From: Flavobacterium cheniae
GTDB taxonomy: Bacteria > Bacteroidota > Bacteroidia > Flavobacteriales > Flavobacteriaceae
Assembly (NCBI RefSeq): GCF_004363695.1
Contig: NZ_SNZC01000005.1
Span: forward strand, 1-64,000
DNA: 64,000 nucleotides
Direction of reading: 5' to 3'
The notes beneath the pieces are model-generated. The model had not been told where the DNA came from. It worked only from the letters and a program-made list of their open reading frames with translations, and searched no databases. This document shows positions 43,227-45,991 of the stretch, in pieces. A program made the position numbers and the translations under genes. Each line of letters opens with the position of its first letter. Within the stretch, counting starts at the first letter, position 1.

Positions 43227-44948
43227 ATGGAAATATCAGGTTGGTTAATCTTTATCTTATTAGTTCAAGTAATTCACGGAATTGGAACTTGGAAATTATA
43301 TGTAAAAGCAGGTAGAAAAGCATGGGAAGCGTTTGTTCCAGTATATAACGGAATTGTACTAATGCAAATCATCAACCGACCAAAATGGTGGATTTTATTG
43401 CTTTTTATTCCAGTTATTAACTTGTTTTTATTCCCAATTATTTGGATTGAAACGCTGAGAACTTTTGGTAAAAAATCAACCGTTGATATGGTTTTAGGTG
43501 TTGTTACATTAGGATTTTACATCGCTTATGTAAATTACACTCAAGAAACTACTTATCATGCCAATCGCGATTTAACTGCACCAAACAAAACAATGGATAC
43601 TTTAGGTTCGTTGTCTTTTGCAATTGTTGTTGCGACCTTAGTTCATACGTATTTTATTCAACCTTATACTATTCCAACGTCATCGTTAGAAAAATCGTTA
43701 TTGGTGGGTGACTTTTTATTTGTGAGTAAGTTTCATTACGGAGCAAGAACTCCTATGACTCCAATTGCTGCACCAATGGTTCATGATACTTTACCTATTG
43801 TAAAAGTAAAATCATATACTGCTAAGCCTTCATTGCCTTATTTCCGTTTTCCTGCATTACAAAAAATTGAACGTAATGATATTGTAGTTTTCAACTGGCC
43901 AGCTGATACTTTATTTCATATGTACAAAGCGGCTGATAAAAGATACGATAAGCCTATCGACAAGAAAACCAATTACGTAAAACGTTGTACGGCTATTCCT
44001 GGTGATAATTTTGAAATCAGAGATGGCATTATTTTTATTAACGGAAAAGAGTCCATACTTCCTGAAAGAGCGAAACCGCAATACTTTTATCTAATAAAAT
44101 CAAAAGATGCTTCTATTGATAATTTAAAAGAATTTTATCAGATTTCTGAGGGTTACCCTCTATTTGAAATTAAAAATGAAATTTGGGACAAACCCGAATT
44201 AAAAAATGAATTAATTAGTCAATATGCTTTTGAAGAAATATCAAGAGACACCCTAACTACAGCTATAACTGGACAAATTGATCAAGAAATTTACAATAAG
44301 TTAGGTTTAATGATTTCACCCAATTATTTCTATGGAAATCTTACTTTTGAAAAATTTGAAAAATTAAAATCTGATAGTAGAATTAGTTTTGTAAAACGTC
44401 AAATTAGTAAGGAAGCTGAAGATGGAATATTTACAGATATTCTAGATGGAAAACCTTCTTCTAAAAATAGTTGGAACAAAGATAACATGGGCCCAATTTA
44501 TATTCCAGAAGCTGGAAAAACCGTGGCCTTAAACAAAGAAAACTTACCGCTTTATAAAAAAGTAATTGGTGAATACGAAGGAAATGATTTAAAAGTAAAC
44601 GGTGATGAAATTCGTATCAACGGACAAATTGCAACTTCATATACTTTCAAACAAGATTACTATTGGATGATGGGAGACAATCGTCATAACTCATTAGACT
44701 CTCGTTATTGGGGATTTGTTCCTGCTGATCACATCGTTGGAAAACCAATTTTTATTTGGATGAGTATTGATGGTATCAACGATGGTCTTAAAAACTGGAG
44801 TATCCGTTGGGATAGATTATTTACAACGGTTAGCGGTGATGGTCAACCAAAATCATATTTCCAATATTTCTTAATTGCTTTAGCAGCTTACTTTGCTTTT
44901 GATTATTTTAGAAAAAAGAAGAAAAAGAAAGAAGAGAATAATGTTTAA
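43227..44948 (+). CDS. lepB: Signal peptidase I, long Bacteroidetes form
   Basis: Cleaves signal peptides from exported proteins. The 573-aa protein has three hydrophobic segments in the first ~110 residues (DUF5684-like), then the LepB membrane helix, catalytic Ser153 in IPTSSLEKSLLVGDF, the Lys252 general base in NYVKRCTAIPGD, and the C-terminal MMGDNRHNSLDSRYWGFVP. It is nearly twice the length of E. coli LepB, because of the N-terminal membrane region, a polar insertion of about 150 residues (~275-425), and a C-terminal membrane helix with a Lys-rich tail. Its stop codon lies in the left inverted repeat of the S23 cassette. Confidence 0.95.
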   Translation: MEISGWLIFILLVQVIHGIGTWKLYVKAGRKAWEAFVPVYNGIVLMQIINRPKWWILLLFIPVINLFLFPIIWIETLRTFGKKSTVDMVLGVVTLGFYIAYVNYTQETTYHANRDLTAPNKTMDTLGSLSFAIVVATLVHTYFIQPYTIPTSSLEKSLLVGDFLFVSKFHYGARTPMTPIAAPMVHDTLPIVKVKSYTAKPSLPYFRFPALQKIERNDIVVFNWPADTLFHMYKAADKRYDKPIDKKTNYVKRCTAIPGDNFEIRDGIIFINGKESILPERAKPQYFYLIKSKDASIDNLKEFYQISEGYPLFEIKNEIWDKPELKNELISQYAFEEISRDTLTTAITGQIDQEIYNKLGLMISPNYFYGNLTFEKFEKLKSDSRISFVKRQISKEAEDGIFTDILDGKPSSKNSWNKDNMGPIYIPEAGKTVALNKENLPLYKKVIGEYEGNDLKVNGDEIRINGQIATSYTFKQDYYWMMGDNRHNSLDSRYWGFVPADHIVGKPIFIWMSIDGINDGLKNWSIRWDRLFTTVSGDGQPKSYFQYFLIALAAYFAFDYFRKKKKKKEENNV

Positions 44949-45374
44949 TTGTTAAATCGTTTAATTGTTTAAAAGGAATGCATAAATTTTCATTTGAGAA
45001 ATTAGACGTTTGGATAGAGTCAAAAGAATTGACAAAATCAATCTATAATTTAACTCTGTCTTTTCCGGATAGTGAAAAATTTGGACTTGTTTCTCAATTA
45101 AGAAGAGCTTCTGTATCAATTTGCTCAAATATTGCAGAAGGAACTTCAAGAATTTCAGATAAAGACAAAGCTCATTTCATTTCTATGTCTTACAGTTCAA
45201 CAATGGAAGTATTAAACCAATTAATACTATCCTATGAATTAGAATATATTAGTGAAACCAATTATTCAAACTGTAGGAATCGAATAAATAGCATTACTAA
45301 TAAATTGAATTCCTTAAGAAATTATATCTTAAAAGATAAAAACTAAACAATTTAACGATTAAACAATTTAACAT
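44941..45374. mobile_element. S23/four-helix-bundle cassette bounded by 31-bp inverted repeats
   Basis: The left repeat 44941-44971 (starting ATGTTTAATTG) and the right repeat 45344-45374 (reading ATGTTAAATTG on the minus strand) are imperfect inverted copies, identical at 28 of 31 positions. Between them lies only the S23-family gene. The left arm covers the lepB stop and the right arm covers the S23 stop. The RNA could fold with the two ends paired, which is the architecture of 23S rRNA intervening sequences. Whether the unit moves is not shown here. Confidence 0.55.
44978..45346 (+). CDS. Four-helix-bundle protein, S23/23S rRNA intervening-sequence family
   Basis: A 122-aa protein of the IVS/S23 (four helix bundle) family: FEKLDVWIESKELTKSIYNL, LVSQLRRASVSICSNIAEGTSR, FISMSYSSTMEVLNQLILS, and ITNKLNSLRNYILKD. 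The family was first seen inside intervening sequences of 23S rRNA genes and is now known as a stand-alone gene in many Bacteroidetes; its biochemical role is unknown. No rRNA gene is near. The gene lies exactly between the two 31-bp inverted repeats of the cassette. Confidence 0.9.
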   Translation: MHKFSFEKLDVWIESKELTKSIYNLTLSFPDSEKFGLVSQLRRASVSICSNIAEGTSRISDKDKAHFISMSYSSTMEVLNQLILSYELEYISETNYSNCRNRINSITNKLNSLRNYILKDKN

Positions 45375-45379
45375 TTCAA

Positions 45380-45991
45380 ATGAACATCCTAATACATCCA
45401 ACTTATTTCCCATCAATTAGCCATTATGTGGCAATGCTTCAAGCGGATTCGGTTACGTTTGAAATGGAAGATAATTTCCAAAAACAAACCAACAGAAATA
45501 GGATGTATATTTATAGTCCAAACGGAGTTCAATTACTGAATGTTCCAGTAAAGCATGCTGTTGAAAAACATCAGAAATACAAAGACGTCAGAATTGAGAA
45601 CGATTTTGGATGGCAGAAAAACCATTTTAAATCCTTGGAAGCAGCTTACCGAACTTCGCCTTTCTTTGAATACTTTGAAGATGACTTTCGTCCGTTATTT
45701 GAAAAGAAACATGAGTTTTTGATGGATTTAAATTTAGAAGTTTTTCAATTAGTAAACGATTCATTAGGAATTAATATCCAACCCAAAAAAACTACTGAAT
45801 TCTTCCATGAAGCTTCTGATTATTCAGATTTCAGACATTTAGTAAACGGAAAAAAAGATACTACTCAAATAGAAGAATACACACAGGTTTTCAATGAAAA
45901 ACATGGCTTTATCAATAATTTAAGTATTCTAGATTTGTTATTTAACGATGGCAGATATGCCGTAGATTATTTGAAGAACCAACAACTTTAA
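45380..45991 (+). CDS. WbqC-like family protein
   Basis: A 203-aa protein resembling the WbqC-like family, which occurs in polysaccharide clusters and elsewhere. The N-terminus NILIHPTYFPSISHYVAMLQADSVTFE, with the following QKQTNRNRMYIYSPNGVQLLNVPVKH and FKSLEAAYRTSPFFEYFEDDFRPLF, fits that family. The exact reaction is not established. It starts 5 bp after the right inverted repeat of the S23 cassette. Before any cassette insertion it may have followed lepB directly. Convergent with the EEP gene. Confidence 0.82.
   Translation: MNILIHPTYFPSISHYVAMLQADSVTFEMEDNFQKQTNRNRMYIYSPNGVQLLNVPVKHAVEKHQKYKDVRIENDFGWQKNHFKSLEAAYRTSPFFEYFEDDFRPLFEKKHEFLMDLNLEVFQLVNDSLGINIQPKKTTEFFHEASDYSDFRHLVNGKKDTTQIEEYTQVFNEKHGFINNLSILDLLFNDGRYAVDYLKNQQL

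Follow-up and report, generated by a model that had tools for sequence, protein, structure and literature searches.

A stem-loop cassette enclosing an S23 gene in the lepB–wbqC spacer of Flavobacterium cheniae: a candidate messenger-RNA counterpart of the 23S rRNA intervening sequence

Genes of the S23 family lie within intervening sequences (IVSs) of 23S ribosomal RNA; the account of the Coxiella burnetii IVS describes the protein as without known function and calls the function and origin of the IVS unclear (PMC4990558). The window analysed here, a 64,000-nucleotide (nt) stretch of Flavobacterium cheniae DNA, carries an S23 gene between two protein-coding genes, enclosed by ends that can pair. 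What kind of unit is this, and how does it come to lie there? An earlier note, made from the sequence alone, had read it as a free-standing unit of the IVS type whose paired ends enclose nothing but an S23 gene, a reading that our open reading frames (ORFs), Pfam assignments and the match between the arms support.

Architecture of the cassette

The spacer between lepB (43227–44948, forward strand), a signal peptidase gene and the upstream host gene, and a wbqC-like gene (45380–45991, forward strand; PF08889), the downstream host gene, is filled by a cassette of about 430 bp that consists of a left arm (44940–44971), the S23 or four-helix-bundle gene (44978–45346, forward strand; 122 amino acids) and a right arm (45344–45375). 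The genes were assigned by ORF and Pfam, the lepB product comprising Peptidase_S26 plus an N-terminal DUF5684; the arms, inverted partners of each other, have no strand. The left arm contains the lepB stop codon (TAA, 44946–44948), and the right arm begins with that of S23 (TAA, 45344–45346), as the earlier note had placed them, and the wbqC-like start codon lies 4 nt past the right arm. A possible ribosome-binding site, AAAAGGA (44971–44977, forward strand; found by eye), sits between the left arm and the S23 start codon, an interval too tight for a promoter. S23 is the sole gene between the arms: ORFs and Pfam reveal no transposase there, including none of the Y1 type, and no reverse transcriptase was found among the three neighbourhood proteins scanned with Pfam (LepB, S23 and the WbqC-like protein). 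An Rfam scan of 44700–45600 gave no family at the gathering score and no rRNA family, confirming that rRNA is absent from this place between lepB and wbqC; a weak match to a plant microRNA in the same interval was read as chance.

The two arms, separated by 372 nt, are complementary at 29 of 32 positions (91%); the 28 of 31 reported before describes this repeat with one base fewer. Their flank-against-flank score of 43 exceeds the best score of 34 among 2,000 dinucleotide shuffles of both flanks (0/2,000 as good), and the predicted RNA fold of the cassette pairs them (z = −4.9; 0/100 shuffles). Each arm is indeed a doubled word (GTTTAATTGTTAAA / GTTTAATTGTTTAA, spacing 16), or about four units of period 8, which in the left arm read GTTTAATT, GTTAAATC, GTTTAATT and GTTTA. 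The half-arm pattern with at most one mismatch occurs twice in the window, against 0.11 expected. With up to three mismatches, a 29-nt arm pattern has six matches genome-wide, the only exact ones being the two window arms. This rules out a genome-wide family sharing the exact ends; the proposed search for the 31-bp ends elsewhere in the genome thus uncovered no repeat family, each cassette having words of its own. The nearest carrier of the cassette differs from the window at two arm positions that are not partners, with no compensation, so this pair has no base-by-base covariation to show.

The S23 protein belongs to PF05635 (23S_rRNA_IVP), which it matches at 121.8 bits against a curated cut-off of 33.8. 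Its model has four helices with a mean pLDDT of 93.3, and the nearest solved structure, a close match, is the S23 structure 2gsc. The fold is common to the window protein and Avd of diversity-generating retroelements (PDB 4dwl, 8ub7), although sequence identity is only about 9%; 4dwl is more distant than 2gsc (TM 0.77 by query length, E = 0.048) and the bAvd Pfam match is below that family's cut-off. The likeness of PF05635 to Avd has been described (PMC10053308), and an S23 crystal structure is cited as a homopentamer (PMC4990558).

S23 genes are very common in the window's genus, with 146 of 150 genomes positive. No S23 match was found among 50,697 phage records, and plasmid relatives amount to 21 records, mostly from cyanobacteria (Nostoc, Calothrix and others). 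Several S23 matches in two genomes (G119 and G066) are split or contain stop codons and appear to be pseudogenes. A gene for a 'four helix bundle protein' that was listed among phage elements of Flavobacterium columnare lies 33 to 88 nt from its guanylate kinase and adenylyltransferase neighbours (PMC5524665, Table 5), a tight fit that resembles that of window-type S23 cassettes.

Arms, words and placement at other S23 loci

Arms recur around S23 genes, and the cassette is not a one-off. We scored the inverted match of the upstream 150 nt against the downstream 150 nt, with thresholds set after a first look, at 80 named S23 loci that are the best matches to an S23 alignment rather than a random sample; five near contig ends were dropped. 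Of the remaining 75 loci, 44 scored at least 24 and 32 at least 30; of 495 genes that neighbour S23 at these loci, 19 and 7 did so. The paired-end layout therefore extends to many S23 genes beyond the window, and many others (31 of 75, scoring below 24) are without arms at the thresholds used. When the flanks were lengthened a little, a score of at least 24 was reached at 47 of the 79 named S23 loci and at 76 of the 104 others. Nine control genes scored at least 28, four of them being S23 genes themselves as judged by eye from their translations; one high-scoring control (L166:8218-8763) has inverted flanks and a translation that, by eye, resembles a REP-associated transposase. Clear-armed S23 loci span Bacteroidota, Planctomycetes, Acidobacteria, Verrucomicrobia and one Nomurabacteria genome. 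Within the window's genus, among Flavobacterium-like genomes, 22 of 30 S23 loci scored at least 28, this set being the best-scoring S23 hits plus the two of the window genome after 2 of 32 were dropped as short. Four 23S rRNA words had no match in the S23 loci collected to that point, and no rRNA-resident S23 was found among them.

Cassettes also occupy a fixed position relative to neighbouring genes. Arms at a score of at least 28 were present at 101 of the 183 located S23 loci, some of which are orthologs, so that the counts are not independent. At these clear-armed loci the distance from the upstream stop codon to the start of the left arm has a median of +1 nt (10–90% range, −9.5 to +16). 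In each of the 96 loci that have an upstream ORF, the nearest such ORF is codirectional. The nearest downstream ORF is codirectional in 71 cases, starting a median of 7 nt past the right arm, and not codirectional in 13. Among named S23 loci the upstream gene is codirectional in 66 of 67, compared with 391 of 488 for other genes. An arm at the upstream stop codon together with a codirectional upstream gene places S23 cassettes for reading from that gene.

Short tandem words are characteristic of the arms, a strong tandem signal being present in 61 of 152 S23 flanks compared with 75 of 932 control flanks. Of periods 5 to 12, the 61 strong flanks favour 7 (41 flanks), followed by 8 (15) and 9 (5), and the 75 control flanks are mostly of period 7 or 8 too. 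A tandem signal was also found in 76 of the 101 armed cassettes, with periods of 6 (2), 7 (38), 8 (30) and 9 (6). The words are cassette-specific: an arm matches its own partner with a median of 39, compared with 10 for the arms of other loci. Across the 25 S23 cassettes found at the lepB–wbqC junction of different genomes, each arm's own partner fits best (0/5,000 permutations), a result that weakens to 141/5,000 without the window's clade of four; 10 of the 25 carriers have no arms at a score of 24.

Words nevertheless follow the S23 protein subfamily at unlinked sites, and some travel with it. We compared pairs of named loci whose flanks, over about 6 kb on either side, show no detectable homology; they make up 1,012 of 1,081 named pairs, their neighbours being varied and non-homologous. 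Words were held in common by 12 of the 71 such pairs with a protein similarity of at least 0.5, and by 10 of the 941 pairs below 0.5; over all pairs the correlation of protein with word is weak (Mantel rho 0.13, 2/1,000 permutations as high). In 400-kb samples, S23-less word hairpins were found in 0 of 184 spacers of the one S23-free sample (G095) and in 4 of 219, 3 of 237 and 5 of 207 spacers of three others; the absence from G095 is suggestive, in numbers too small to decide whether the hairpins depend on S23.

Turnover of cassettes and hairpins

Comparison of the lepB–wbqC junction among relatives covered 58 loci, in 53 of which wbqC adjoins. S23 lies in the spacer of 25 of these 53 junctions and is missing from 28, a ratio that is not a frequency, because carriers come from the top S23 hits in 398 genomes and non-carriers, separately, from the top WbqC hits in 60 relatives; the draw by WbqC hits contained 2 carriers in 30. 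On the WbqC tree the distribution needs 16 changes of presence, 9 of them forced by well-supported branches, compared with a mean of 18 for shuffled labels. S23 and WbqC divergence correlate (rho 0.46; 0/2,000 permutations as high), and the same S23 subfamily is found in all 25 genomes, which together argue that the window cassette is not a fresh insertion. It looks like an old resident that has been lost or exchanged many times. The earlier proposal of an insertion between lepB and the WbqC-like gene thus holds to the extent that S23 is absent from 28 junctions, and does not hold for a recent event.

Spacers of at least 55 bp account for 22 of the 28 junctions without S23 and the remaining six are shorter; one of these six (L036), mis-measured through a misplaced lepB stop, was left out of the count. 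Of the 22, 16 are hairpins whose words match S23 arms from other sites; among control spacers of comparable length the figure is 13 of 257. The two nearest S23-less relatives (G022 and G031) have a hairpin of different sequence at the junction. Repeats widespread without S23 genes had been named in advance as a finding against the cassette. Such S23-less word hairpins do exist; since those at the junction bear S23-type words, we read them as relatives of the cassettes.

Other sites in these genomes show the same alternation. At site B, G031 has a 450-nt S23 cassette, lying between a stop codon and the start codon that follows; five genomes (G333, G022, G262, G221 and G324, the last with a weakly matching right flank) have a spacer of 14–15 nt, and five (G000, G254, G011, G009 and G014) have 63–93 nt without S23; in G000, the window genome, this stretch is a clear hairpin whose word is a different one. 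G031 alone of these 11 genomes has S23 at the site, and G254 and G324, both without it, lie outside the group on the WbqC tree, so that a gain in G031 is the simplest reading; three genomes with only one matching flank (G026, G021 and G017) were left out. By eye, no target-site duplication is evident at site B. The empty 14–15-nt spacers (L329–L331) contain short palindrome-like stretches, one being TAGTTTAAACTA in L331, which resemble the words of the G031 cassette and are possible seeds of arms.

At site C, G031 carries an S23 cassette, G333, G262 and G221 a 75–77-nt hairpin of another word, and G000 and G022 only 14–16 nt. The adjoining site D has in G031 and G333 an S23-less hairpin whose words are those of the cassette at site C, a spacer of 38–39 nt in G022, G262 and G221, and an unrelated 477-nt stretch with a small ORF in G000 (G000:C2:668068-668540, L327). 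The second S23 gene of the window genome (G000:C2:463971-464276, L002) is of another subfamily and has hairpin-like flanking repeats, short pieces of which recur in relatives; it is absent from its site in all five relatives compared, where the spacers are 86–153 nt. From one related genome to another, the same spacer can thus carry an S23 cassette, a word hairpin that lacks S23, or next to nothing.

In one neighbourhood, a single S23 unit occupies different spacers in different genomes, one in G031 and a second in G333 and G022; identity is 77% and stops within or close to the arms. A move is the simplest reading, separate insertions being the alternative. A comparison of 51 loci of five genomes turned up no genome with near-identical S23 cassettes at two of its sites, and recent duplicates were rejected, the longest match between different sites of one genome being 78% over about 390 bp. 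In this check the protein motif missed 25 of the 51 loci and the arm list was partial; the DNA comparison covered all 51.

Explanations and related systems

We favour, with moderate confidence, the reading of the window cassette as a free-standing stem-loop insertion element of mRNA spacers, the counterpart of the S23-bearing IVS of 23S rRNA, with S23-less hairpins as its short derivatives. The main rival, which we think unlikely though worth weighing, puts the hairpins first: word hairpins would arise in place at gene 3′ ends, as terminators or processing sites that grow by slippage and template switching, and S23 would settle in their loops as a passenger that neither makes nor moves them. 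S23-less word hairpins with varied words at the same spacers are what it expects, as are the arrays of the same period that flank other genes, each site with its own words. It does not account for S23 subfamily and word travelling together at unlinked sites, or for one S23 unit at two spacers with homology ending at the arms. Position also speaks against it: S23 cassettes are flush with stop and start codons, whereas ordinary hairpins, those of S23-free spacers in the four sampled genomes, begin a median of 20–32 nt past the stop.

A second alternative makes S23 a resident regulator of both neighbours, the stem tuning the stability of the operon mRNA. The correlated divergence of S23 and WbqC at the junction and the codirectional, tightly packed placement would suit such a role, but at least nine forced changes of presence at that junction, the occurrence of S23 at site B in 1 of the 11 genomes compared and the varied, non-homologous neighbours of S23 (1,012 of 1,081 named pairs without flank homology) make it improbable. 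That AT-rich spacers full of quasi-repeats render the inverted match meaningless is scarcely credible: the window arms are AT-rich and built of short words, but none of the 2,000 dinucleotide shuffles equalled them and neighbouring genes of the same loci seldom show arms (19 of 495, compared with 44 of 75).

For the insertion element that we favour, we infer the following route of movement and role for S23. The element would sit between two genes and be read within the mRNA of the upstream gene, and S23 would be translated from this read-through message. The arms would fold into a stem and, by analogy with the Coxiella rRNA IVS, could be cut by a double-strand RNase; if the stem is cut out, the neighbours would be little disturbed. 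S23, Avd-like and probably a pentameric ring, may recognise the stem or its words and help the element to persist or spread, with the host supplying the enzyme for movement. The S23-less hairpins would be short derivatives of S23 cassettes, and the two arms of a cassette would evolve in concert.

More tentatively, and as a possibility that we hold less firmly than the reading of the window itself, S23 elements may form a widespread, unrecognised class of mobile stem-loops, with rRNA IVSs as its rRNA-resident members, S23 in mRNA spacers as the bulk and 7–9-nt repeat hairpins at bacterial gene 3′ ends as derivatives that lack S23; an S23 ring would then read the words as an Avd-like ribonucleoprotein cofactor. 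In searches of one open-access library we found no paper that links S23 cassettes of mRNA spacers to rRNA IVSs. A fixed habitat, turnover shared with hairpins and words that follow the protein open the way to direct tests of what S23 binds, and the same features bear on how IVSs entered rRNA and where intergenic heptamer repeats originate.

Several known systems share parts of this design. Insertion sequences and miniature inverted-repeat transposable elements (MITEs) are recognised by a transposase or a related full-length transposon, whereas the window arms enclose only S23 and recur exactly nowhere else in the genome. REP sequences and REPINs are short intergenic hairpins linked to a RAYT transposase gene that is flanked by the same hairpins, with non-coding copies elsewhere. 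S23 cassettes are like them in tying intergenic hairpins to an enclosed gene, with gene-less copies elsewhere, and differ in that this gene is S23 rather than a transposase and that the words vary by cassette.

The intergenic heptamers GGGAATC and GGGGA(T/C)T described in Xanthomonas and Nostoc are tandem, mostly of four units, lie on average 28 nt from the end of the 5′ neighbour and often form inverted pairs, mostly between aligned genes, with 70–75 inverted pairs per genome in two Xanthomonas (PMC4692102). They are described there as G-quadruplex repeats whose sites are not common to two species, with no general association with mobile elements and with surrounding loci that the authors consider more stable (PMC4692102). 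S23 arms are like them in having 7-nt tandem words and inverted pairs near the end of an upstream gene. The heptamers differ in that one word dominates a genome, and S23 has no mention in the main text of that study (PMC4692102). The Xanthomonas arrays near stop codons would, by this analogy, fit the S23-less form of the hairpins.

The closest counterpart is the 23S rRNA IVS of Coxiella burnetii, 428 nt long, in which heptamer repeats precede an S23 ORF in the loop of a 28-bp stem excised by RNase III, and whose S23 protein is inferred probably not to be made in vivo (PMC4990558). The window cassette lies outside 23S rRNA, and thus lacks the defining feature of an rRNA IVS; it occupies instead a spacer between protein-coding genes, as part of an mRNA, where it fits closely against stop and start codons, and its S23 start codon is unlike the rRNA case in having a possible ribosome-binding site. 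In architecture the two agree: in each, terminal inverted repeats make a stem whose loop holds an S23 ORF, the repeats being 28 bp in the IVS described for Coxiella and 32 nt in the window (29 of 32 paired; fold z = −4.9), each has short tandem words by the ORF, and their sizes, 428 nt and about 430, are nearly the same.
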